IMG/VR virus record: IMGVR_UViG_3300025120_000183
Span: 1 to 38,364 of that record
Strand: one strand, 5' to 3'
DNA from: a virus
DNA: 38,364 bases
The position numbers were made by a program, and so were the translations under genes. Shown piece after piece: positions 1 through 27,725 of the stretch; the stretch's first letter is position 1; each line of letters starts with the position of its first letter. The notes beneath the pieces are model-generated. The model was not told the DNA's origin. It saw only the letters and a list, made by a program, of their open reading frames with translations, and did not search any database.

Positions 1-262
1 TGCTAAAAAATGTCATACTAGGTACAAGAACTTCGTCACCTGGCCCTATACCACATGCAAGTAAACCTAACTGTTGAGCCGCAGTACCACTACCTACACC
101 AACTGCATTTGATATTAATCTTTTGGCTAGTAACCCTTCAAGTTTTTCTACCCACGGTCCATTTATAAACTGACTATTTTCTATACAATCATTCATGTTT
201 TTATCAATGGCAGATTTTACTGTGCTGTTCAACCGTTGTAGATTTGCATAAGGTACTTTCAT
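1..262 (-). CDS. DegT/DnrJ/EryC1-type PLP aminotransferase, N-terminal part (cut by window edge)
   Basis: Only the first 87 codons are present; the gene runs off the left edge. The visible part begins MKVPYANLQR and contains GSGTAAQQLGLLACGIGPGD, the N-terminal PLP-phosphate region of fold-type I sugar aminotransferases of the DegT/DnrJ/EryC1 family. The catalytic lysine lies outside the window. The start at 262 is chosen because its ATG overlaps the TGA of the upstream radical SAM gene (ATGA), the coupling seen throughout this operon; an in-frame ATG six bases earlier is possible. It is a second aminotransferase of the same family as the gene at 1440-2531 but clearly diverged. The likely role is amination of a keto-sugar nucleotide. 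Confidence 0.85.
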   Translation of the reverse strand, partial: MKVPYANLQRLNSTVKSAIDKNMNDCIENSQFINGPWVEKLEGLLAKRLISNAVGVGSGTAAQQLGLLACGIGPGDEVLVPSMTFFS

Positions 263-12405: not shown

Positions 12406-13284
12406 ATGAACAAACTATTAATAACAATGGCTCTTACTTTATTAGCATTTTTGCCATTAAGTGCAAATGCACAAAAGCCAATATTAGATGTAACTATTCC
12501 ATCTAGTAACAAAGGTAACAGTTGGGCAGAAGGCAACATGCTCAGTGATGCACTTAAAAGAATGGGCTACGACAGTGAAGTAGTGCATACAAAAAAATGC
12601 ATAATCAATAAAGCATATATTGAAAAACCAACAGGCCGTCCAGCAGTGTTTGTTAGGTCAGCAGGAAGGTATGTAAAAGACGAGTCAAGAAACTGTAAAA
12701 TTGAAATAACAGACGACAACTTCTTAACAGTGTTTTATAAAAGACATCAAACCATGTGTGTAAGATCTGATGCATCATTTGAGAATATACAACAATTTCT
12801 CAATGGCAAAACACGTATAACAGTTGCAGTTACACACAGTTCAGTTGACGGAATATTTGATAATTTGTCTGATCAAACAGGAGTAAGATTTGTTCCTGTA
12901 AAAGTTAAAGGCAGTAAAAACATTATTAAGAGTTTAGTTGCCGGTGACACTGATCTAATGTATAGTGGTTTTACCAAACGTGAAATAGGCACTGACACTA
13001 TTAATTGTTTTACAACCAGTGCAAACAAACCAATTGGCGGAAGAGTTCCAATGTACAAATTGTTTCCAACCTGGCAATTAAATGAAACTGGAAGAATCAA
13101 ATACTTTCATGGTGTTAATATACCAGTAGACAGACTTGCTAAAATACGTGAGGATCTTGCTGATATTGTTAACGATATAAAAGTAAAGCCTTATCTTGCA
13201 AAAACTTTTATGACTCCGGGCAGAGAGATAGCAAACGGAAGGCAAGTGTTTGATCAACATGTTGCCACACTACAAGCAAAATAA
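12406..13284 (+). CDS. tctC: TctC/Bug-like periplasmic binding protein
   Basis: A 292-residue protein with a signal peptide (MNKLLITMALTLLAFLPL, cleavage after ANA near residue 22) and a strong AAGGAG ribosome site seven bases before the ATG. After the signal peptide it has the alternating fold of periplasmic binding proteins, with VRFVPVKVKGSKNIIKSLV and GDTDLMYSG resembling the Bug/TctC pattern (phe-val-pro, then G-D-x-D). Four cysteines suggest disulfides in the periplasm. It is most likely the substrate receptor for the permease upstream; the ligand is unknown. Its stop overlaps the next ATG (TAATG). Confidence 0.72.
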   Translation: MNKLLITMALTLLAFLPLSANAQKPILDVTIPSSNKGNSWAEGNMLSDALKRMGYDSEVVHTKKCIINKAYIEKPTGRPAVFVRSAGRYVKDESRNCKIEITDDNFLTVFYKRHQTMCVRSDASFENIQQFLNGKTRITVAVTHSSVDGIFDNLSDQTGVRFVPVKVKGSKNIIKSLVAGDTDLMYSGFTKREIGTDTINCFTTSANKPIGGRVPMYKLFPTWQLNETGRIKYFHGVNIPVDRLAKIREDLADIVNDIKVKPYLAKTFMTPGREIANGRQVFDQHVATLQAK

Positions 13285-14555
13285 TGTGCGGATATTTCTA
13301 TTCACATAATATCCCAATACCAATTGGGCCTTTACAAAGTATAAGGCGTAGAGGCCCAGAATTTTTTGATGTGTTCACAGTTGAAAATGAATATTATGGA
13401 CACAGTCTTTTATCCACCAGAGGTGCAGCCACTGTTCAACCTATCCACACGTCAGACGGCGTCCTAGTATACAATGGTAGCACCTATAATGGCGCAGGCA
13501 ATGATGCTCAGTGGATAGCAGATAATTTAGACAGTCGCTCTAGTGTTACTATTGAATTAATTAAAAGTTTAATTGGTGAATACAGTATTACCTATGTAAC
13601 AGATAGTTGCATTATTTTTGCAGTTGATCAATGGAGTACAAAAAATCTTTATTTTTACTATGACCAACACAGTAAACAACTAATTTGTGCAAGTGCAATC
13701 GATTTTGTATTAGAACATGCACCCCATGCGATCCGTGCTGAAGCAAATAAAATTTATATGATAGATAAAAGGTCATTCTCTTTAGATATATTTGAGACTA
13801 CCGAATGGGATTTGACACAGTCTGTTGACAATTACGATCGACTTTATGAAGCATTTGAACAAGCAGTCATAGACAGACATGAAGCAGGAATTACAACCTA
13901 TATGCTTAGTGCTGGCATTGATGTTGGCACTATTGTTTGTTGTGCAAACAAGCATTTTAATAACGTACAGGTTGTTTCTAAAGTTGGCAAAGAAGATCCA
14001 GTTGTGCTAGGACAACGTCTTGATCGGCATAGGAAAAAATGGCATGATCCAAAGGATGATTCAGCTCACGAAAAATTTTGTATAGAAATGTTTCAGCAAT
14101 ATAGATTGGATTATCTACGCAGTAGCAGTGCAAGAGCTTTAACTGCAATTTTACAGAATCATCTATTGCCAAATAAGCAAAAGATTCTGATCAGTGGTAT
14201 AGGTGGTGACGAATTATATGATGATTATCAGACTGATAAAAAGACACATGGAAGAATAGGCAAAGTCAATGGCAACTGGCCAAATGATCTAAGAACAGTA
14301 TATCCATGGCATAACTACGAAGGAACCCGCATGTCTAAGCAGTTACACAGAAGCGATACAGTATGTGGACACCATGGCATAGAAGCAAGATATCCTCTTG
14401 CTGATCAACGTGTATTTCAGCAATGGTTAGCCACAAGTGTCAAATTAAAAAATAGTGGATATAAACATTGGATGGTGCAGTATTTAAAGGAGCATAATTA
14501 TCCTTTTACAACAATAAAAACAGGTTTTACCAGCAAAAGAGGGCGTATTAGATAA
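13284..14555 (+). CDS. Asparagine-synthetase-like glutamine amidotransferase, copy 1 (altered PP-loop)
   Basis: A 423-residue protein with the AsnB two-domain layout in a short form. Cys2 right after the start (MCGYFYS) is the class II glutaminase nucleophile; RRGPE (22-26) and YNGSTYN (63-69) are further glutaminase-pocket motifs. The synthetase half has SAGIDV at 209-214 in place of the PP-loop SGGxDS, having lost the final serine, and GGDELYDDY near 308-316. Ammonia from glutamine would be used on an adenylated carboxylate, but the degenerate PP-loop makes catalysis doubtful. It is a tandem paralogue of the next gene. It could amidate a sugar acid, peptide or other carboxylate (inference). 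Confidence 0.87.
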   Translation: MCGYFYSHNIPIPIGPLQSIRRRGPEFFDVFTVENEYYGHSLLSTRGAATVQPIHTSDGVLVYNGSTYNGAGNDAQWIADNLDSRSSVTIELIKSLIGEYSITYVTDSCIIFAVDQWSTKNLYFYYDQHSKQLICASAIDFVLEHAPHAIRAEANKIYMIDKRSFSLDIFETTEWDLTQSVDNYDRLYEAFEQAVIDRHEAGITTYMLSAGIDVGTIVCCANKHFNNVQVVSKVGKEDPVVLGQRLDRHRKKWHDPKDDSAHEKFCIEMFQQYRLDYLRSSSARALTAILQNHLLPNKQKILISGIGGDELYDDYQTDKKTHGRIGKVNGNWPNDLRTVYPWHNYEGTRMSKQLHRSDTVCGHHGIEARYPLADQRVFQQWLATSVKLKNSGYKHWMVQYLKEHNYPFTTIKTGFTSKRGRIR

Positions 14556-14556
14556 C

Positions 14557-15861
14557 ATGTGTGGATATTTTTTTTCAAATAATATAAAAATTAAAGATAG
14601 TGCATTGTATAGTATTAAACGGCGCGGACCCGAATCTTACACAAATATTAATGTTAGTGGATCTAGTGTGTATGGTCATGCTCTCCTTAGCACAAGAGGA
14701 AACTCACCAACCCAACCTATTCAAAACAAACATGGCGTATTAGTATATAACGGAAGCACATATAATAGTACAGCCAACGATACACAATGGATAGCAGATA
14801 ATCTTGACGAAAAACAGGAAACCACTGTTGACTTGATAAAATCTCTTATTGGTGAATACAGTTTAACATACGTGACTAATACACATATTGTTTTTGCAGT
14901 TGATCAATGGAGCACAAAGAATCTTTATTTTTACTATGATAAACTCTCAAAACAATTTTTAATAGCAAGTACTATAGATTTTGTCTTAAAACATTGTCCA
15001 AATGCAGTTAGAGTACAAGCAAATAGGATTTATACAATTGATAAAGAAACATTTGAATTTGATTTTATAGAAACCACACAATGGAATTTTGCTCAAACGG
15101 TTAATAATTACGATGAGTTGTTTGAAACATTTGAACAAGCAGTTTGGGATCGTCATGAGCCAAAAATAACCACATATCTGCTAAGTGCTGGGATTGACTC
15201 TGGAGCAATTGTTTGTTGTGCCAGAAAACGGTTTAATGAGGATATGTATACAGTGAGTAAGATAGGAATTGATGAGCCTCACATACTTGCAAAAAGAATG
15301 GAAATGCAAAAGACCCCATTGATTGATCGACTAGACGATTATGATTATATTCCTGCCACTGAAGAAATTTATCAAGCATATCACTTCAGAAATGTGCGAG
15401 ACCATACTGCAAGAGCTCTTGTCTCAATACTACAAAATCATCTTATTCCAAACAAGCAAAAAATTTGCATTGGTGGAACCGGTGGTGATGATGTTTATGA
15501 TGACTATCAACCTCATAAAAAAGAGTACGGTAGGGTAGGAAAAGTAAATGGTGAATGGCCCAGTGATCTAAAAACCATATATCCATGGCACAATTATGAA
15601 AATACTAGATTGCACAACCAATTACACAGAGGTGATATGATCTGCGGTTATTATGGTATAGAAGAACGGCATCCATTGTTGGACCAACGAGTGTTTCAAA
15701 AGTGGCTTAATACAACCGTAAATCTAAAGAATGCAGGACATAAGCATTGGTTATTGGAATATTTAAATCAACATGATTACCCAATATCAACATGGAAAAC
15801 AGGCTTTGCTAATACAAAAAATTTATCAGGAAGTTTAGATCTGCATGAAAATGACTCTTGA
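14557..15861 (+). CDS. Asparagine-synthetase-like glutamine amidotransferase, copy 2
   Basis: A 434-residue tandem paralogue of copy 1, aligning from MCGYFFS through the C-terminus with many identical blocks (YNGSTYN, DQWSTKNLYFYYD, YPWHNYE). The class II nucleophile Cys2 is present, and the PP-loop reads SAGIDS (210-215), retaining the aspartate-serine pair that copy 1 lost, so this copy is the better candidate for active ATP-dependent amidation. The canonical AsnB is longer (about 550-630), so the synthetase domain is trimmed. It starts one base after the stop of copy 1. The substrate is unknown; asparagine synthesis is possible but not shown. Confidence 0.88.
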   Translation: MCGYFFSNNIKIKDSALYSIKRRGPESYTNINVSGSSVYGHALLSTRGNSPTQPIQNKHGVLVYNGSTYNSTANDTQWIADNLDEKQETTVDLIKSLIGEYSLTYVTNTHIVFAVDQWSTKNLYFYYDKLSKQFLIASTIDFVLKHCPNAVRVQANRIYTIDKETFEFDFIETTQWNFAQTVNNYDELFETFEQAVWDRHEPKITTYLLSAGIDSGAIVCCARKRFNEDMYTVSKIGIDEPHILAKRMEMQKTPLIDRLDDYDYIPATEEIYQAYHFRNVRDHTARALVSILQNHLIPNKQKICIGGTGGDDVYDDYQPHKKEYGRVGKVNGEWPSDLKTIYPWHNYENTRLHNQLHRGDMICGYYGIEERHPLLDQRVFQKWLNTTVNLKNAGHKHWLLEYLNQHDYPISTWKTGFANTKNLSGSLDLHENDS

Positions 15862-16945
15862 CACTCTTATAAACAAATCAACAATACGTGTCGAAGCAGA
15901 GAATCATACCTGTTACTGGACGGCTGATGGTTATAAATTTGACAATGCAAACCTAGCACTCTGGTACGAAACTGATAGACAAAGTTATGTTTCGTATGTT
16001 GATAGTCAGATTGACATAATACGCGGATACCTGCAAACGTCAATTGACATGGAATGTGATTATAATAAACAATTTTTACATTATCTTAGAACAAGTTATG
16101 AACAGCTTAACTTATATTTCAGTGGTGGGGCAGACAGTTTAACTATATTAGAAACTGCACATTTAAATAATATATCATTTGATAAAATAATTTGCCAGAC
16201 CTGTGATGATATTAATCTTGAATGTAACAGAGAAATAAAACGTTGTGCAATACCAGTGCTTGAAAAATATAAATTAAACTATAACATTGTTTCAACAACT
16301 TGGCAAGATCATTTTGAGAAGTACAGTAGTGAATACAGTTTCTTTACTAATCCTATGCCAAACGTCTTGCCTTTCCGTGCTTGTCCAGATTCTGAAGTTA
16401 GTTATAAAGCACAAGATGCTTGTTACATTGTTGGAAAGGATAAACCGCAGTTGGTAAAGCACAATAAAAAATGGTATGTGGTGTTGATGGATACACAATC
16501 AAGTGTCACAAAAAAGAATCCATTTTTGAAATCCTTTTGGCTTGATGCTTTTAATATAAAGAGCTATGTGAAAGATGCTATATTATACAAAGAATATCTG
16601 CTTGAAAACGACCTTGTAAACAAAAATAAGCTACAGTTTTTTAAGCCTGACCAAAATCCAGTTGTAAACGGAATACTAAAAAGAAGCAAAGTTCATATGG
16701 CAGAAACACAACTATTAAAAAATATTAACAATTACACAAGCAGTAAAAATCTACAAAGGATCGTAGATGCAATTAGCAACCAACGTATGGATGTACTTGT
16801 AAATTATTTTAGTGCTATGAAAAAATTTAATAGTGTTCTACCAGACTATGCTTACAAAAATGCACCTGGAAGATTTGCTTGGTTTATTGATTTAGATTCC
16901 TTAGAAGTTTTTACACAACAAGAACTCATTCCCGACGGCTTTTAA
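15845..16945 (+). CDS. PP-loop ATPase-like protein of the amidotransferase operon
   Basis: A 366-residue protein with an intact PP-loop SGGADS at 93-98 (LYFSGGADSLTILETAH), the ATP-pyrophosphatase signature of AsnB, ExsB/QueC and related enzymes. There is no N-terminal Cys2, so it lacks the glutaminase domain and may take ammonia from the amidotransferases encoded just upstream. The C-terminal 200 residues match nothing I recognise. It starts inside the end of copy 2 (17-base overlap; ATG at 15851 also possible) and ends in a four-base convergent overlap with the minus-strand gene at 16942. It likely adenylates the substrate of this operon (inference). Confidence 0.75.
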   Translation: MKMTLDTLINKSTIRVEAENHTCYWTADGYKFDNANLALWYETDRQSYVSYVDSQIDIIRGYLQTSIDMECDYNKQFLHYLRTSYEQLNLYFSGGADSLTILETAHLNNISFDKIICQTCDDINLECNREIKRCAIPVLEKYKLNYNIVSTTWQDHFEKYSSEYSFFTNPMPNVLPFRACPDSEVSYKAQDACYIVGKDKPQLVKHNKKWYVVLMDTQSSVTKKNPFLKSFWLDAFNIKSYVKDAILYKEYLLENDLVNKNKLQFFKPDQNPVVNGILKRSKVHMAETQLLKNINNYTSSKNLQRIVDAISNQRMDVLVNYFSAMKKFNSVLPDYAYKNAPGRFAWFIDLDSLEVFTQQELIPDGF

Positions 16946-17501: not shown

Positions 17502-17605
17502 AGTTGATCCTTAAAAACTATTAACACGCCTAACAATTGTAGCATAACAAAGAGAAAGGCAAATAACATTTGCCCCATTAGTTCTCTAAATTCTTCTCTG
17601 CTCAT
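17498..17605 (-). CDS. Tiny single-span membrane protein
   Basis: A 35-residue frame with a charged amphipathic N-terminus (MSREEFRELMGQ) and one hydrophobic span (LFAFLFVMLQLLGVLIVF). A CTAAATA box, like marine phage late promoters, lies 9 bases before the ATG and contains the TAA stop of the omega gene. It overlaps the GTG of the next gene (GTGA). Could be a small membrane effector; not assigned. Confidence 0.55.
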   Translation of the reverse strand: MSREEFRELMGQMLFAFLFVMLQLLGVLIVFKDQL

Positions 17606-17613
17606 AATGATAT

Positions 17614-17877
17614 TTAGCTGTCGAGTATCGGATCGGCCTCAACTTCTTGTGGCATATTAGTGCGATACTTGTTAATCATCAACTCTTTGTTGTCCTCAAT
17701 TGGCATCACACCTTCTTCTATTTCTCTTAGTGCAGTCATGCCCCTTTTGTTAAAGTGTTCTGCTAGTGGAGGATTGTCTGCACTATAACTTCTAGCTCTG
17801 CCAGCGGCTGCAACTATTAATTCAAATTGACTTCCACCTATTTTCTTTATGCCTTCAGTGTTACTAATTCTTGCCAT
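17614..17877 (-). CDS. rpoZ: RNA polymerase omega-subunit homologue (RpoZ)
   Basis: An 87-residue protein that follows bacterial omega (about 91 aa in E. coli) along its first two thirds: MARISN at the start, then KKIGGSQFELIVAAAGRARS (11-30) matching the family's nucleus for beta-prime binding, then MTALREIEEG (47-56), which is nearly the family's ALREIEEG block. The tail is acidic and differs. Omega stabilises the folding and assembly of beta-prime and, with beta-prime, forms a ppGpp site. The ATG at 17877 is chosen because it gives the family start; an upstream ATG (17895) is less likely. A phage copy could steer host RNA polymerase or its ppGpp response (inference). Confidence 0.88.
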   Translation of the reverse strand: MARISNTEGIKKIGGSQFELIVAAAGRARSYSADNPPLAEHFNKRGMTALREIEEGVMPIEDNKELMINKYRTNMPQEVEADPILDS

Positions 17878-18058
17878 TGATATTGTACCTTTCAATTGTT
17901 TCTTTAGTCATTATCCCACTGCGGAAATTTTCCACAGCATCTTCAACATAATGCATACTGTGATCACTGTAGTCAATCACACCTATCATTGTGTTGTCCT
18001 CGTAAAACTCGACATAGTGTTTATCGCCGACTTTTTTATACTTTGTGTCTCTATCCAT
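17864..18058 (-). CDS. Small hypothetical protein
   Basis: A 64-residue acidic protein (MDRDTKYKKVGDKHYVEFYE) with a beta-rich start and a helical end. It overlaps the downstream omega gene by 14 bases and the upstream gene by eight. No motif recognised. Confidence 0.68.
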   Translation of the reverse strand: MDRDTKYKKVGDKHYVEFYEDNTMIGVIDYSDHSMHYVEDAVENFRSGIMTKETIERYNINGKN

Positions 18059-18275
18059 TCGACATTACCTTTATTAGTTGTAGTTCTTTGCCTGTAATTT
18101 CTCTCAATGATAAACCTTTGCCACCAGGATCCATGCTTTCATATTTGATTAGACAAGCACGTGCATTTATATCTTTCCAAATTTCCTTTTTTCCATCTGG
18201 CCAAGCAATCTCATATGTACGAGGTGTTTTATCCCAACTTTTAGGAGCACCTTCTTTCATATAAGTTATAGTCAT
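18051..18275 (-). CDS. Small hypothetical protein
   Basis: A 74-residue protein with TYEIAWPDGKKEIW and a later helical DINARACLIKYES. It is coupled to the PsiE gene by ATGA. No family recognised. Confidence 0.68.
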   Translation of the reverse strand: MTITYMKEGAPKSWDKTPRTYEIAWPDGKKEIWKDINARACLIKYESMDPGGKGLSLREITGKELQLIKVMSNG

Positions 18276-18667
18276 TCTGTTTTGCCTATGTTCAATATGT
18301 ATACTGCACCGGCTAATATGATTATTGCCCCAGCACTACTAATTAGCACCCACGGCTCACTTTCTTTACCTTGTAGTATAAGCAATCTACACATGGCAGT
18401 AATAGCAATTACAATTGGAAATGTTACAGGAATAACATGAGTACTGTAATAGGCTCCTACCATACCAATTATTTCTACATATATAAACAGTAAAAACAAG
18501 TCCGCAAGATCAATGTTTCTTGCTAAAAACATATCCCAAATATCCAAGCCTGCGGCCACCAATGTTAAACAACCAATCACTGCCAACATGCCTTTTTCAC
18601 TAACCACTGTTGTCCAGTGTAGTTGCTTGGTAAATTCGTTGTTGATAATATCTTTAATTAATTTCAT
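18272..18667 (-). CDS. psiE: PsiE-family membrane protein
   Basis: A 131-residue protein with four hydrophobic spans. The segment LFLLFIYVEIIGMVGAYYST followed by IPVTFPIVIAITAMCRLLIL (about 57-97) is the hallmark of PsiE, a phosphate-starvation-inducible inner membrane protein (the family has YxE...Y...R-IPVRFLIYIAITALTRLLI). The biochemical role of PsiE is unknown. A phage copy fits phosphate-limited oceans, but no Pho box is obvious nearby. Start and stop are both coupled to neighbours. Confidence 0.85.
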   Translation of the reverse strand: MKLIKDIINNEFTKQLHWTTVVSEKGMLAVIGCLTLVAAGLDIWDMFLARNIDLADLFLLFIYVEIIGMVGAYYSTHVIPVTFPIVIAITAMCRLLILQGKESEPWVLISSAGAIIILAGAVYILNIGKTE

Positions 18668-18864
18668 TTTATTTCCTCAACTTTTGTCCCACCTTTGCAT
18701 ACCCAACCAGGCGGTGCCCACAGTGTATGATTTAGATCATTTTCTTCTGTGCAGTCAGGACAAAAGCCAAAACCATTTTCTAGTATTTTTACTACATGTC
18801 CTTTATCACACTTGCCCACTACGCCGTGGAACTCAAGCAGATGTTTGGTTATCCCTATTGCCAT
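18664..18864 (-). CDS. Small zinc-ribbon-like protein
   Basis: A 66-residue protein with GKCDKGH (C19, H23) and FCPDC (C35, C38), a likely CxxxH...CxxC zinc-binding set, and a further cysteine at 56. The ribosome site AGGAATG lies just upstream. It overlaps the upstream gene by 32 bases, long for this genome, but no later in-frame ATG exists before the metal motif. Confidence 0.68.
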   Translation of the reverse strand: MAIGITKHLLEFHGVVGKCDKGHVVKILENGFGFCPDCTEENDLNHTLWAPPGWVCKGGTKVEEIK

Positions 18865-19117
18865 CGTTCATTCCTAATGCATTCTGTGTCCAATACTCAA
18901 CACACAACCAATATATCTCGTCTTCAGTAAACTGACTGTATAGTTTTTTTCTTTTTAATTTTTCAATTGATTTGCTATAAACGGAATATCCATGATAATT
19001 GTATTGTGGATCTTCCGCAACACTTTTAATAACTTCAACTGCTTTCAATTGTTTTGGATTGTAATCAGCGGCTTGAGTGTGATATCTTTTGGCCGTGAAT
19101 TTACTCATTTCTTGCAT
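18833..19117 (-). CDS. Hypothetical protein downstream of a structured leader
   Basis: A 94-residue protein, MQEMSKFTAKRYHTQAADYN, with a basic helix IEKLKRKKLYSQF and an aromatic C-terminal part (EIYWLCVEYWTQN). The start at 19117 is chosen because GGAG lies six bases upstream; the frame is open to 19129. The first gene after the candidate pseudoknot RNA, so it may be controlled by it. No family recognised. Confidence 0.68.
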   Translation of the reverse strand: MQEMSKFTAKRYHTQAADYNPKQLKAVEVIKSVAEDPQYNYHGYSVYSKSIEKLKRKKLYSQFTEDEIYWLCVEYWTQNALGMNDGNRDNQTSA

Positions 19118-19139
19118 GGTTTTCTCCATTACGTTTACA

Positions 19140-19310
19140 ATACAGAGTACTGTAGATGTTTAAGGGCCCTCTCATGATCTACACGGAAAGTGCTGAGTTT
19201 CACTTTCGACCAGGCCCGCCCTGTATATTAAATAGTGACTATGGGCTCCCCACTCCTTTACAGTTAGGAAGGCGATATCTTGAGTACATAGCCTACACGC
19301 CGCCTTTTCC
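19140..19310. ncRNA. Candidate structured RNA with pseudoknot
   Basis: A gene-free, GC-rich stretch. Pairings found by eye: ATACAG (19140-19145) with CTGTAT (19221-19226); TGTAGAT (19151-19157) with ATCTACA (19177-19183); GGGCC inside that loop (19164-19168) with GGCCC (19213-19217), forming a pseudoknot; and GAAAGTG (19186-19192) with CACTTTC (19201-19207). A separate AAGGCG/CGCCTT stem lies at 19269-19306. All arms are perfect. Strand is uncertain; minus would place it as leader of the gene at 18833. No known family recognised. Confidence 0.5.
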
Positions 19311-19331
19311 AAACTCTGCATTGTAATTCTT

Positions 19332-19547
19332 TTACTTGTCGCTTAATTTTCTTAATTCGTAACTTTCACCAAGCCAATAAACAAGCATACCAAAACACAC
19401 AGTAACTCCAACACCCCATATGATATGTTGTGGTGAAAACCCAAAATTGTTTGCAACATGTACTATTGCTTTTAATGTTCCAAATACAATTGCAGTTCCA
19501 ATTGCAATAAGGGCTAGTCTTGACACAATATATTTTACTTTTTCCAT
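19332..19547 (-). CDS. Small two-span membrane protein
   Basis: A 71-residue protein with two hydrophobic spans (about 9-30 and 41-60), a basic start MEKVKYIVSRL and a charged end ESYELRKLSDK. It has its own promoter with a leader box. It could be holin-sized, but it is not next to a lysis gene and I do not call it one. Confidence 0.72.
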   Translation of the reverse strand: MEKVKYIVSRLALIAIGTAIVFGTLKAIVHVANNFGFSPQHIIWGVGVTVCFGMLVYWLGESYELRKLSDK

Positions 19548-19563: not shown

Positions 19564-19610
19564 TTTCTAACTTTATACTTAATAGTAACACAACATGTTG
19601 TGTTTGTCAA
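19564..19610 (-). promoter_or_regulatory. Sigma70-like promoter with AGTTAGAAA box
   Basis: Minus strand: TTGACA (19610-19605), 17-bp spacer, TACTAT (19587-19582), AGTTAGAAA (19572-19564), serving the two-span membrane protein. A CAACATGTTG palindrome lies in the spacer. Confidence 0.75.
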
Positions 19611-20626: not shown

Positions 20627-21061
20627 TTACATAATGCCAAGGAACCAGATATAAATTGGTGAATGAAATTTGAAGACAACTGTGCCATTGCACCCAATAT
20701 CTCCATAGAATTGATCTTGGATAGGTTTGCCTGTACCGTTGAAATCGTGATAGTATACTGTGTTTGATGTGAAGCTATCGTGTAATTCTATATCGTCGAG
20801 TATGAGGTTATTAATTTTAAGTCTGGCATCTGTGAGAATATTGTTGTTTTTATCGACTGTGGTATGGTTCTCTGTTTTATTTCTCATTGTGAACTTTAAC
20901 TCATGGTCGCCATCATCGACTTCTATATTTAAAGTAATAGGTGTTTCTTTGTCTACATGAGGTATATCAATAATTGTGTTGTCGTCTAGTGCAACACTAA
21001 AACCAAGTTCAGCTGAATAGTCAGTGCTAGTAACATTGAATGCTAGTTCTACAGTTTCCAT
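20627..21061 (-). CDS. Beta-rich phage protein, paralogue A
   Basis: A 144-residue protein, METVELAFNVTSTDYSAELG, with repeated beta strands and the conserved end DFNGTGKPIQDQFYGDIGCN and SPIYIWFL. Shares its start, an MRNKTENHT-type block and the whole C-terminus with the gene at 21420-21857. The all-beta pattern resembles carbohydrate-binding or virion-decoration domains, but this is inference. Similar proteins are common in marine T4-like phages in my recollection. Confidence 0.75.
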   Translation of the reverse strand: METVELAFNVTSTDYSAELGFSVALDDNTIIDIPHVDKETPITLNIEVDDGDHELKFTMRNKTENHTTVDKNNNILTDARLKINNLILDDIELHDSFTSNTVYYHDFNGTGKPIQDQFYGDIGCNGTVVFKFHSPIYIWFLGIM

Positions 21062-21419: not shown

Positions 21420-21857
21420 TTACATATTAGTTACTAACCACAAATATATCGGTGACTGAAACACAAACTGGACAGTGCCATTACAACCCATATCACCCCA
21501 AAATGTATCTTCAATTGGGTCTTTTGTGCCATTGAAATCGTGTAGATATACACATGTTTTGTAAAATGTGTCCCCAAGTTCAACACTGTTGATAGTAAAA
21601 TTGTTTATATTTAAATATGCATCTTTAATTATTTCATTATTGGCATTTAGTATTGTATGCTCAAAAGTCTTATTCTTCATTATAAACTGTAATGTATGTT
21701 CAACATCAGCTGATAAATTTATTGGAAAACTTACAGGAATTAGTGTATTAACGTGATTCACTTGAAACATTGTTCTATTATTATAACAAACTTCAAGGTC
21801 CAAATTACAAAGATAATCTGAACTTGATAAATCAAATGATATGTTAACTGTTTCCAT
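21420..21857 (-). CDS. Beta-rich phage protein, paralogue B
   Basis: A 145-residue protein, METVNISFDLSSSDYLCNLD, homologous to 20627-21061 along its full length: MKNKTFEHT, LNINNFTINSVELGD, HDFNGTKDPIEDTFWGDMGCN and SPIYLWLV are all shared. All-beta, no membrane segment. An AGTAAATA late-promoter-like box lies 6 bases before the ATG. Probable virion or surface-binding protein (inference). Confidence 0.75.
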   Translation of the reverse strand: METVNISFDLSSSDYLCNLDLEVCYNNRTMFQVNHVNTLIPVSFPINLSADVEHTLQFIMKNKTFEHTILNANNEIIKDAYLNINNFTINSVELGDTFYKTCVYLHDFNGTKDPIEDTFWGDMGCNGTVQFVFQSPIYLWLVTNM

Positions 21858-22974: not shown

Positions 22975-23048
22975 TGGCAGAGGACCAAGGAGTCGAACCC
23001 TGGCTTAGTGGGTTGGAGCCACTCGTGCTACCATAACACTTGTCCTCT
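22975..23048 (-). tRNA. tRNA-Trp (CCA anticodon)
   Basis: A full cloverleaf: acceptor AGAGGAC/GTCCTCT, anticodon stem AGTGG/CCACT with loop CTCCAAC (anticodon CCA), T-arm CAGGG-TTCGACT-CCTTG, discriminator G, encoded CCA end. The D-arm is short (GTG/CAC). Trp agrees with a G discriminator. Confidence 0.9.
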
Positions 23049-23053
23049 ATTTT

Positions 23054-23129
<76 letters not shown>

Positions 23130-23134
23130 GTGTT

Positions 23135-23211
<77 letters not shown>

Positions 23212-23582: not shown

Positions 23583-23998
23583 AATTCGTATCCTTGTAGT
23601 TGTTGTTTATATATTTCATGTCCGCCTAAGTAAAGATATTCATAGCCTTGTGCTTTGTAATATGCACAAAGATATTCTAGACTTTTAATACCTAACTGCT
23701 TCCACGGCTTGTGATATGTCCATGCAAACTGTGCCGCCGCAACATTAGTAGTATTGTATTTAAACAGCAATGTAAATCCCGCAAGTTCTTCTGATTCAAA
23801 GTAACAGTGTAGATCACTTTGTGGATATGTATATTCCTCTATAAACAGTGGCATCACACTGTGAAAACGTTTGTGTAAACAATAAGTTCTATATACTTCC
23901 TGTAGTTTTTCAAAATTAAAATTACGTACTAGCCTAGCATCAATGAACGGAATTTGTGGCTTATAGTAAGTATGCTTTAGTATAATTCTACTATACAT
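23564..23998 (-). CDS. GNAT-like acyltransferase
   Basis: A 144-residue protein whose C-terminal half resembles GNAT-type or arginyl-transferase-like folds: LAGFTLLFKY (strand 4), an amphipathic KQLGIKSLEYLCAYYKAQGY helix, LYLGGHEIYKQQLQGYE as strand and last helix. The acyl-CoA R/QxxGxG loop is not clear. The start at 23998 overlaps the amidinotransferase stop by eight bases. It probably acts on the same substrate as its neighbours, but this is inference. Confidence 0.6.
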   Translation of the reverse strand: MYSRIILKHTYYKPQIPFIDARLVRNFNFEKLQEVYRTYCLHKRFHSVMPLFIEEYTYPQSDLHCYFESEELAGFTLLFKYNTTNVAAAQFAWTYHKPWKQLGIKSLEYLCAYYKAQGYEYLYLGGHEIYKQQLQGYELCPPMS

Positions 23999-25049
23999 TT
24001 TTTTGCAACGAGCCGTTACGTTTAAGATCATTTGTTACACAATGGATACCGGCATCCCAAAAGTATTTGTGTCTAAATGGGGAGATGTGTGCAGTGATAT
24101 TATAACGTGTTAGTGCATCAACTGCCTGTTTGTTGTATTCAGCCAGTACTACGTTGGTAGGATTAATAATTAAAATATTAACTCCAAACACTGTTTCGCT
24201 AACTTCTCCTATCCACTCGTCCATATATGTATCGACAGTTTCAGTTATAAGAGGATTTTTATCAAATCCTGGTATGTACCATTTTCCTGCGTTTAGTTTC
24301 ATACTTGCTTGAAACATTTTATGTGCGGCATAATGGCTTTCAGGCAGATGTACAACCTCCCAATTTGGAAAGTTTTGTTTGTAATCTTCGTTAGCAATGC
24401 TTATTATTAAGCCTGGTGCCACTGGACAATATACTGCATCTCCATGACCTTGTGCATCCACAATGTGATTTATTGTGTTTGGAAACAGTTTATCAACTTG
24501 TTCTTGTATTGCGGTCCAGTCGTCGTAGACTGTTTGTGTTGCAAAAAATAAATCTTCTCCAAGTCTACTTACAAAACAACCGCTTATGTAACTACAATCA
24601 GTAGGGATAACATTGCACCTTCGAAAGATGTCTTTATAAAATTCCAGTTTTCTAACATGTTTTAACTGGTCGTGAGCTTGGAATTGTGCCCAGCTTTTAG
24701 TTTTTTGTTTTTTAAAAGCATTATGAGCGTGATTTGCATTGGGCGTAACTGGTACCCATAGTTCATCATGTATTTGTATAAAATAATCTCTTGGAGTAAC
24801 CGGTGGAGGTACCCATACACCATCAACTAAACAATCGTCAAATGTATCTGGGATAGTAGGTCGTACTACTTCGACATCAAAACTTTTTAGCAGTGCTATA
24901 AGTTTTTCAAAGTCCTCTTCAGTTTCTTTAGCAACCTGTTCAAATTTCTTACGTGTGTTCGCATCTTTAATCCAAGAATAAAATTCTGGCGGATATGCTT
25001 TGCCGACAACACAAAGTTCTAGCGGATCCCAATGTTGATAAACTGTCAT
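23991..25049 (-). CDS. Amidinotransferase family protein
   Basis: A 352-residue protein of the glycine/inosamine amidinotransferase fold. Visible active-site parts are RDYF (87-90), GHGDAVYCPVAPGLI (201-215, catalytic His202 and Asp204) and GIHCVTNDL (334-342) with the nucleophile Cys337, in the family's order. Such enzymes move the amidino group of arginine to an amine through a Cys-amidino intermediate. The start overlaps the radical SAM stop by four bases. The acceptor amine is unknown; an amino-sugar or polyamine are possibilities. Confidence 0.88.
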   Translation of the reverse strand: MTVYQHWDPLELCVVGKAYPPEFYSWIKDANTRKKFEQVAKETEEDFEKLIALLKSFDVEVVRPTIPDTFDDCLVDGVWVPPPVTPRDYFIQIHDELWVPVTPNANHAHNAFKKQKTKSWAQFQAHDQLKHVRKLEFYKDIFRRCNVIPTDCSYISGCFVSRLGEDLFFATQTVYDDWTAIQEQVDKLFPNTINHIVDAQGHGDAVYCPVAPGLIISIANEDYKQNFPNWEVVHLPESHYAAHKMFQASMKLNAGKWYIPGFDKNPLITETVDTYMDEWIGEVSETVFGVNILIINPTNVVLAEYNKQAVDALTRYNITAHISPFRHKYFWDAGIHCVTNDLKRNGSLQKNV

Positions 25050-25882
25050 CTAAATTCTACTGTGTCTGTGTGGTTAACTATACTAGCAGTATCTATGGCA
25101 GTTGGACACTGTGTACACATTTTATGAGGCTTACCAAAGTTTTTACTAAATGCATAAAGTTCGCTTATATCAGCGTCAACACTAAGTCCTGTATTTAGAT
25201 ATGATTTCCAAAGCTCGCTATTTGGACTGCCATGTTCTGCCCATACATCGTTTAGTAGTGCAGCCTGCGAACATTTATATAATTTGTCTTCTAACAGCAT
25301 TGGACAGGTTGTTTGATGACAGTTGTCAAATGCTAGTACAGGATCACTATTCCATGGCTTCATAGTTTCATATGTGCCTTGGAAAGTACGTGTAAACCAT
25401 TTTGGTTTGTTGACTTGAAATCGCATACCGTTTGCTAACTTATGCCGATTTATTCCGTATTCGGTGACTGGTTCCCAATTATAACTTCTTTGTACCCTGG
25501 CAATTGCATTTTGTATTTTATCACTTGGTAGATGCACTGTAATTTTTAATATGCAATTACCTATGTCATTGAGTAATTCAACAATACGCCAATGCTTTTC
25601 TAATAATAGGCCGTTTGTAACAAAACGTATTTGTGCATCTGGTAATAAGTCTCTTACTGCTACAATCCAATCATACATTTGAGGATTCATAAGTGGTTCT
25701 CCGCCCATAGCACCCCATGCTTGTATTTCCATGCGTTCGCTCCATGGACGTAGCCATTCCATACCTTGTTTCACTGTAACATAGCCTGTACGTCTCAGGT
25801 CACTGAATGTACTACACCCTACGCATTTTAAATTGCAAGGGTACACTAGCATACTTTCCACATATGGTAAGATTGGTTTCAT
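25046..25882 (-). CDS. Radical SAM protein with extra cysteine cluster
   Basis: A 278-residue radical SAM protein with CNLKCVGC (C16, C20, C23) and MGGEPLMNP near residue 59. The C-terminus has CHQTTCP, YKCSQA and MCTQCP motifs, suggesting a twitch/SPASM-type auxiliary iron-sulfur cluster. SPASM-type enzymes modify peptides or small molecules; no precursor peptide is obvious except the tiny proteins downstream. Coupled to the amidinotransferase by ATGA. Confidence 0.85.
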   Translation of the reverse strand: MKPILPYVESMLVYPCNLKCVGCSTFSDLRRTGYVTVKQGMEWLRPWSERMEIQAWGAMGGEPLMNPQMYDWIVAVRDLLPDAQIRFVTNGLLLEKHWRIVELLNDIGNCILKITVHLPSDKIQNAIARVQRSYNWEPVTEYGINRHKLANGMRFQVNKPKWFTRTFQGTYETMKPWNSDPVLAFDNCHQTTCPMLLEDKLYKCSQAALLNDVWAEHGSPNSELWKSYLNTGLSVDADISELYAFSKNFGKPHKMCTQCPTAIDTASIVNHTDTVEFR

Positions 25883-25893
25883 TATCGTACTTA

Positions 25894-26853
25894 TTAACGC
25901 CCAAGGACCCTATCAAAACTCTGTTGATCAGTCCATATAGTACTTGCTCTAGGATTGTCTTTACGTACTCGATTACATATTTTTAAAAAAGGATTGGTTT
26001 CTAAAAGTTTTATATTATTTTTAAACCGTTTTTGATTATGTCTTATAAATCTACTTACGTACTTAAAATCTTGTAATAAGCCCAGGTTCTTTTCAATTGC
26101 AAAGTAAGCTCTGTCCCAAGGGTCATCATATGCTTCATAACTATGGTCTACTATGTCATCAAAAATATCAAAACCCATTTCACGTAATGTATCAGCTAGG
26201 CGCCAGCCTCCAACCCAAATTGGAAGTGTGCCTGCATAAATTGACATAAGTGTTTTTTCAGTGTGCATGGTTTCTCGTTCTAAAAAACTTGGCTCGGTGA
26301 TTAAACTTATACAACTTGGTTCAAAGATGTTTTTTTGTAGCAGATGTGTGTAGGTTTGTGCATTGTTTATATCACCCTGTTGTATGCCACGGTCTAGTTG
26401 TCTTTTTATACCAAATGTGTATGTAGTAGGCATTAAACTACTATATGGATTGCTCTTCCAAGGCAGTGTATATGTAAAATCTTTTAAGCAAAATTTTTCT
26501 ATTAATACTAACAATAACTGTCTACTCAATCGAGGTTTATTAATCATGAAATTAAATGTGTGCGTCTTTTCTCTTAGGTTTGGCGTAATACCTTGATTGA
26601 TATAATCTTGTGTTTCACGTGCAACATAACCTGGTAAACATATATGCGGATAAACATTTAATATATCATCATGGTGCATTTGGTCAAACACCAGCAGATG
26701 TGTTTGAGGATCAACAGAGCTATTCTCCAACAAAGTTTTTACATGCCATTGTTTTGTGTCTTCTTGAAAATGATGATCATTGATATAGATTACTTCTGAT
26801 TTATCTAGTATTTCATTGTTGTATCTGTATGTTGGTCCAAACACTTCAATCAT
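25894..26853 (-). CDS. Glycosyltransferase-like protein, family copy 1
   Basis: A 319-residue protein whose C-terminal third carries TEKTLMSIYAGTLPIWVGG, then GFDIFDDIVDHSYEAYDDPW and a basic end. The EK-x-aliphatic...P...G block resembles fucosyltransferase-like GT-B (GT10) donor sites. The pattern recurs in four other genes here. The start at 26853 overlaps the upstream stop (ATGA). Likely adds sugar to phage or host glycans; the donor is unknown. Confidence 0.65.
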   Translation of the reverse strand: MIEVFGPTYRYNNEILDKSEVIYINDHHFQEDTKQWHVKTLLENSSVDPQTHLLVFDQMHHDDILNVYPHICLPGYVARETQDYINQGITPNLREKTHTFNFMINKPRLSRQLLLVLIEKFCLKDFTYTLPWKSNPYSSLMPTTYTFGIKRQLDRGIQQGDINNAQTYTHLLQKNIFEPSCISLITEPSFLERETMHTEKTLMSIYAGTLPIWVGGWRLADTLREMGFDIFDDIVDHSYEAYDDPWDRAYFAIEKNLGLLQDFKYVSRFIRHNQKRFKNNIKLLETNPFLKICNRVRKDNPRASTIWTDQQSFDRVLGR

Positions 26854-27725
26854 AGTGACCAATCCATTCCTGGAGTAGATATGTAAAGTTTTATGCCATC
26901 AAGTGTTATTGACCAGTCACGTGCAAACTGGTACAGCAATGTTTGATTGTGTGTTGCTGCCTGCTCAAATCGCTCGTAATCCCTACGTGTGTACTGTTTA
27001 TCAATAAAAGTTTCTAATTGTTTTATTATAATATCCATTCTCTGCCAATGGTTTGTGATAGTATCATATTCATGGTTCACATAGTCTGCTAAGACATCAA
27101 AGCCGTGTGTTTTCAATAATTGTATACTCAACGGAGAACAATATAATAACCAAGGACGTGGCAATTGCAAGGCCCTGAATATTTTTTCACTGAACACAAT
27201 ATTCGTGTCTAATGTATATGTTTCTAAAACTAAACTTATATTACTATCAATTATACACTGTTCAAGTGTTCCATGCGAATTTACTGTATCGTAGATGTTA
27301 TTTTCAAAATAACTTACTAATCCGCATTCTAATATCTTTTGTCTTTTTAATATATCAAATACTCTATCTCTTTCTGGACGTATACGTCCCATAAAGCAGT
27401 TATATCCATAGGTTGCAGGGCGATCGATATACTGTGGATCAAATCTCCACTGGCTCCAAAATTCTGGTAGTATACTATGAACTACGCCGTCGATTGGTAC
27501 TGTACTGTGGTTATCAGTAACGGTTATATCAGTATAGTTTACAGTATCTACAATACGACAACTAAGTTTGGTATCACCTTTCACAAATTCGTATGGATAA
27601 CCATAGTTTTCTTCGTTCTGTGTAACTACAGAATATCCACAGGATAGGATATGTTCTGTGAGTTCTTTTACAGTTTGTTTTTCTCTTTCAGCAGAGATCC
27701 AAATTCCATCGGTATGCGTTTTCAT
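26850..27725 (-). CDS. Glycosyltransferase-like protein, family copy 2
   Basis: A 291-residue, more diverged member: SEKIFRALQLPRPWLLYCSP and GFDVLADYVNHEYDTITNHW in the C-terminal third follow the family pattern, and the N-terminal half differs. It is the first gene of its minus-strand unit and faces the plus-strand gene at 27740 across only 14 bases, so the promoters must lie inside the coding sequences. No promoter is clear. Confidence 0.62.
   Translation of the reverse strand: MKTHTDGIWISAEREKQTVKELTEHILSCGYSVVTQNEENYGYPYEFVKGDTKLSCRIVDTVNYTDITVTDNHSTVPIDGVVHSILPEFWSQWRFDPQYIDRPATYGYNCFMGRIRPERDRVFDILKRQKILECGLVSYFENNIYDTVNSHGTLEQCIIDSNISLVLETYTLDTNIVFSEKIFRALQLPRPWLLYCSPLSIQLLKTHGFDVLADYVNHEYDTITNHWQRMDIIIKQLETFIDKQYTRRDYERFEQAATHNQTLLYQFARDWSITLDGIKLYISTPGMDWSL

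Follow-up and report, generated by a model that had tools for sequence, protein, structure and literature searches.

The window, by which we mean the whole 38,364-nucleotide stretch analysed here, is a 38-kb virus fragment in which the gap between two small genes, p71 and p98, carries a predicted structured RNA. p71 (19332–19547), a small probable membrane protein gene of 71 aa, lies directly upstream of the RNA, and p98 (18833–19129), which has the Shine-Dalgarno sequence GGAG at 19127–19124 and a likely start at 19117, lies directly downstream. The small genes around the RNA are on the minus strand, to which the coordinates below also refer unless the plus strand is named. In relatives, p65 (17864–18058 in the window) stands directly downstream of the RNA, whereas in the window four extra genes, p98, p66, PsiE and p74, come between the two. 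Beyond p65 is a homologue of the RNA polymerase omega subunit (Rpb6/RpoZ; 17614–17895; Pfam PF01192, 26.9 bits against a cut-off of 26). Terminator-like sites downstream of the RNA are found at 18523–18504 (weak) and, as a hairpin after the omega gene, at 17576–17556, the latter a consensus match only.

A conserved promoter-like sequence, TTGACA-N17-TACTAT (19582–19610), is located within the 66-nt gap before p71; it occurs in the same place and nearly identical in L017, and in similar form in L011 and L040. This conserved site suggests transcription from the minus strand. The spacer between its −35 and −10 elements contains a perfect 16-bp palindrome, ACACAACATGTTGTGT (19588–19603), the outer ACAC...GTGT of which is kept in L017, L011 and L040, and which for this reason looks like an operator.

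For two proteins of housekeeping type, the nearest relatives among isolates come from jumbo phages such as PA5oct, and one contig bearing the RNA is 328 kb long, which makes a marine jumbo phage the likely carrier. The window also encodes a three-tRNA cluster, Trp-Thr-Arg (22975–23211), and two apparent paralogues of 144–145 aa (20627–21061 and 21420–21857) on either side of a plus-strand gene, as well as TctA, the large subunit of a tripartite tricarboxylate transporter, here in a phage contig (11016–12389, plus strand). The PsiE-family (phosphate-starvation) gene, at 18272–18667, shows up to 98% identity to viral contig L002. Metabolic clusters at 13284–16945 (plus strand) and 23991–26862 hold asparagine-synthase-like genes and a radical-SAM gene, and one translation from these clusters, read by eye, suggests an amidinotransferase.

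Strand, borders and fold of the RNA element

The first-pass annotation had placed in the gap an 87-base, H-type-like pseudoknotted RNA made of four perfect helices of 5–7 bp, too many to be expected by chance. All four are present and disjoint, with 25 bp in total: a perfect 6-bp closing stem (ATACAG 19140–19145/CTGTAT 19221–19226, plus-strand letters here and in the next three), a perfect 7-bp hairpin (TGTAGAT 19151–19157/ATCTACA 19177–19183), a 5-bp pseudoknot between a loop and a downstream strand (GGGCC 19164–19168/GGCCC 19213–19217) and a 7-bp inner hairpin (GAAAGTG 19186–19192/CACTTTC 19201–19207). A chance origin is indeed unlikely, as 25 bp was reached by none of 1000 dinucleotide shuffles and by none of the 638 other 87-mers of the window. 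Plain minimum-free-energy folding of the 87-base piece as plus-strand RNA was unremarkable (z −0.44) because the predicted fold is pseudoknotted and lies on the opposite strand.

Conservation in two further lineages, folding energy and covariation together outline a structured element of about 192 nt, 19326–19135, which starts 5 nt past the p71 stop codon and ends 7 nt short of the p98 Shine-Dalgarno sequence; across relatives it begins 3–6 nt after the p71 stop and ends 2–7 nt before the next Shine-Dalgarno sequence. Folded as minus-strand RNA, the p71–p98 gap forms a 14-bp closing stem with a z-score of −2.92, against −1.70 for the plus strand. The same preference is seen in L017 (−3.08 against −0.61) and L011 (−2.48 against −1.38), and hence in three of three lineages. 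The closing stem, P1, varies only to G-U pairs, changes that would read A-C on the plus strand and thus point to the minus strand as the functional one, as we predict it to be. That a conserved structured RNA exists here appears, on this comparative evidence, highly probable. The annotation correctly placed a pseudoknotted structured RNA immediately ahead of a small gene that has a good ribosome site, namely p98 on the minus strand with its GGAG; the strand and length had to be revised, the element being on the minus strand and about 190 nt long rather than 87, with the 87-base piece as its 3′ half.

The consensus fold was evaluated on alignment A5, which comprises five sequences (the window, L017, L016, L011 and L040) from three independent lineages. 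In the fold P1-P3-P4-P5-P6-P7, 97.7% of cells are paired (shuffled mean 91.3) and compensatory change occurs in 11 of 44 pairs, or 19 cells (5.8 pairs when shuffled), values reached by none of 500 shuffles; slid versions of the fold gave 30–51% of cells paired and 0–2 compensatory pairs. Helices P4 and P7 were picked by eye on A5 itself, which favours these statistics, and the subset of the fold without them is 100% paired. The covariation statistics are strong for P3 and P6 and fair for P4, P5 and P7, a grading that reflects the presence of only three independent lineages.

P1 pairs 19313–19326 with 19135–19148 in A5, with 100% of cells paired; three of its pairs vary and none shows compensatory change. 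Inside it, P2 (19265–19312) is a variable stem-loop arm whose sequence and length are lineage-specific in the folds of the window and its relatives, and P3 joins ACUGUA (19259–19264) to UACAGU (19149–19154), with compensatory change in 3 of 6 pairs. The P4 hairpin (19218–19245), with core GCCN.../...NGGY, has compensatory change in 3 of 7 pairs and 88.6% of cells paired. P5, the pseudoknot, pairs GGRCCU (19212–19217) with GGGYCC (19164–19169), the latter within the P7 loop; GGGCC/GGCCC becomes GGACC/GGUCC in relatives. The P6 inner hairpin (19186–19207) is paired in 100% of cells, with compensatory change in 3 of 7 pairs, and P7 (CRUG/CRYG, 19155–19176), the hairpin whose loop carries the 3′ strand of P5, is paired in 95% with one compensatory pair, its outermost pair in the window being C-C. 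An alternative helix, GUUUA/UAAAC (19158–19184), crosses P7 in four of the five sequences, is broken by a G-A in the window, and shows no covariation. The predicted shape is thus a three-way junction with further hairpins and a pseudoknot. L015 is a natural variant in which, at about 190–230, 31 nt are deleted, including the P6 hairpin and GUUUAGAU; its P7 could extend to 5–6 bp.

Covariation in relatives, the check that the annotation had itself proposed, was found for the pseudoknot (P5) and the inner hairpin (P6), and these two helices of the four-helix fold are kept. The closing stem is not: its 6 of 6 pairs in the window fall to 5 of 6 in L016/L017 and 3 of 6 in L011/L040, and P1 and P3 take its place. 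Nor is the 7-bp hairpin, which is specific to the window (4–5 of 7 pairs in relatives), although a shorter, shifted hairpin, P7, presents the same loop. The first reading of this DNA is therefore partly supported.

Protein-coding sequence, whether a short intact region or the remains of a gene, could mimic RNA structure, and one frame runs for about 50 codons without a stop in the window and likewise in L011/L040; in L015 the 31-nt deletion joins this same frame, which stays open through the whole element. In L016/L017, however, a stop closes it among its first six codons, none of the frames stays open in every sequence, and the base differences track base pairs, so that a coding origin is scarcely credible and can be regarded as largely refuted.

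Distribution among relatives and in databases

Relatives were sought with the 169-aa gene upstream (p169) as query, yielding 63 IMG/VR loci. The RNA is present in eight of them (L011, L012, L013, L014, L040, L015, L016 and L017), the first four having identical element sequences, and its bearers form three lineages: the window, L016/L017 and L011/L040/L015. A covariance model built from the five aligned sequences and run over 68 sources and over 35 whole records matched only known family members, one copy per record. The gene order p71–RNA–(p65)–omega is common to relatives and occupies the same syntenic place; the RNA, p71 and this type of omega share records and are absent from the other p169-bearing records searched. 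Between the close relatives L011 and L040 the RNA is 98.9% identical, as compared with 92.5% for p71, 89.7% for p65 and 83.5% for omega, whereas between distant lineages, at 62–72%, it is not more conserved than the neighbouring genes.

These observations also bear on the idea of a DNA-level element, either a mobile inverted repeat or a packaging or replication site, which the 14-bp inverted repeat at the ends might suggest. The element keeps one syntenic place in all relatives, with a single copy per record, no scattered copies, and no copies seen at unrelated sites with target duplications; changes of the G-U type are kept in its stems and compensatory changes occur in its internal arms. We consider such an element very improbable.

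Other searches around the locus brought no new members. The record of G001 has the omega gene and ends before the place of the RNA, and the more divergent omega-like ORFs of G033 and G023 (L114, L115) are without it. A p65 relative is present in L105, in which the RNA was not found, and PsiE relatives likewise carry PsiE without the RNA, except for L002, whose contig stops short of the place. Among viral contigs, neither p98 nor the methyltransferase as query gave relatives and a 24-nt exact pattern gave no match, while the pattern GAGAGGGNCCTTAAAC gave 18 matches, the fold being carried solely by those already in the family. In genome contigs there were no matches to the RNA pattern and no relatives by p65 alignment. 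The family thus appears narrow in distribution, being confined, as far as these sequences go, to a small group of marine phages.

For the RNA of the window, L017 and L011, Rfam 15 gave no family match at its gathering threshold and only unrelated weak matches at E ≤ 10. blastn with three versions of the RNA against 50,697 phage records returned nothing related. Nine isolates (PA5oct, GAP32, RaK2, CBB, XaC1, Phosso, Atu_ph07, Melnitz and C48C1) had neither a match to the RNA model nor such an omega, under stricter filters that weak relatives could escape. A tmRNA or tRNA-like identity was rejected, as neither ARAGORN nor Rfam gave a match at the RNA and the window's tRNAs are found only in the cluster noted above. 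The element would accordingly be a structured family that is new to Rfam 15 and uncatalogued, hosted by little-known marine phages with proteins nearest to those of jumbo phages. It also shows that a fold noticed by eye in the bare sequence can point the way to a conserved RNA, whose strand and borders comparison then corrects.

Possible modes of action

We propose, with a probability of about one half, that the RNA is an intercistronic cis-acting element of an early-type operon that sets the expression of the genes following it. From the conservation, strand, fold, position and co-occurrence described above we infer a single polycistronic early-type transcript, starting from 19610–19582 and containing p71, the RNA and p98-p66-PsiE-p74-p65-omega. 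The nascent RNA would fold into the P1-closed pseudoknotted body. Its partner may be the transcribing polymerase, the ribosome finishing p71, or a protein of phage or host origin, and contact with it would alter either read-through into the downstream part that contains omega or the translation of that part. Such action could be likened to that of EAR/put-type antitermination RNAs or of a translation-coupling element, with no claim of membership in either. Several points weigh against the cis reading. The gene that follows varies (p98 in the window but p65 in the relatives), so the RNA need not be tied closely in cis to one particular gene; the Shine-Dalgarno sequence is left free by the RNA body in predicted folds, as set out below; and the independent lineages number only three.

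A close rival, which we hold to be a serious though not the favoured possibility, is a trans-acting small RNA released from the longer transcript by processing, such as RNase III-like cleavage at P1/P3, and acting on host RNA polymerase, the ribosome or defence, much like other stable phage RNAs. The 14-bp P1 and 6-bp P3 make the RNA a self-closed unit, it is present once per record and linked to an omega-subunit gene, among close relatives it outdoes the flanking genes in conservation, and it stays while the downstream gene changes. On the other hand, no promoter-like site at the RNA itself and no terminator of its own is common to the lineages, and its spacing to the p71 stop codon and the Shine-Dalgarno sequence is too tight for the gap to accommodate a promoter. 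The few-nucleotide, fixed spacing on both sides argues further against trans action, yet the snug fit and the long P1 would suit an RNA cut out for such action equally well, a point that weighs against the cis reading. There is a rather small chance that a more ambitious proposal is correct, namely a new class of phage RNA working with the omega of the same operon to bind and reprogram host RNA polymerase, either by cis antitermination or in trans as a 6S-like RNA of different fold.

The tests suggested by the first-pass annotation implied a ribozyme, self-cleaving or otherwise, or else a riboswitch that senses a metabolite. The compact nested pseudoknot would suit such a function, as would the crossing helix GUUUA/UAAAC, which could exchange with P7. 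We find it unlikely nonetheless: Rfam gave no meaningful match at E up to 10, the downstream genes suggest no metabolite, P6 is missing in L015, and there is no positive evidence specific to metabolite sensing or self-cleavage. To our knowledge, the RNA matches no motif of the known small ribozymes. A Shine-Dalgarno-sequestering riboswitch was rejected, as there is no terminator within the element and the Shine-Dalgarno sequence is left unpaired by the RNA body in the predicted folds, each of one fold state; because no anti-Shine-Dalgarno sequence was found by eye either, simple sequestration is unsupported. The place of this RNA together with an omega homologue under a conserved promoter-like site offers a concrete handle on the control of the host transcription machinery by such phages.

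Comparison with known systems

Some large ornate RNAs are carried by phages. Large ornate RNAs include GOLLD, ROOL and OLE (PMC12286853). The present RNA is likewise conserved, structured and of unknown function, but is far smaller than GOLLD and other large ornate RNAs, has no Rfam match, and lies inside a coding operon. In phage Melnitz, a glutamine riboswitch is found at a two-piece tmRNA (PMC9004378). This is an example of the riboswitches, intercistronic or in 5′ leaders, that occur in streamlined marine bacteria and in phages, and that likewise place a structured RNA within an operon of a marine phage; unlike them, the RNA described here has no Rfam riboswitch match and is not a tmRNA by ARAGORN, and Melnitz has no match to it.

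6S RNA binds RNA polymerase and is a single long bulged hairpin of about 185–190 nt. Identity with it was rejected, given the lack of an Rfam 6S match and a predicted fold that combines a three-way junction with a pseudoknot and additional hairpins, but the two are similar in length and in having a long closing stem, and the phage RNA adjoins an omega-subunit gene. The processive antitermination RNAs include EAR, the pseudoknotted RNA of Bacillus eps operons, and the put RNAs of phage HK022. No relation to these in sequence or fold was found, the phage RNA is much longer than put, and antitermination is suggested here by analogy only, with few terminator-like sites downstream. What it shares with them is a structured RNA located within an operon or at its beginning, for which the exact next gene is immaterial and which leaves the ribosome site unmasked.
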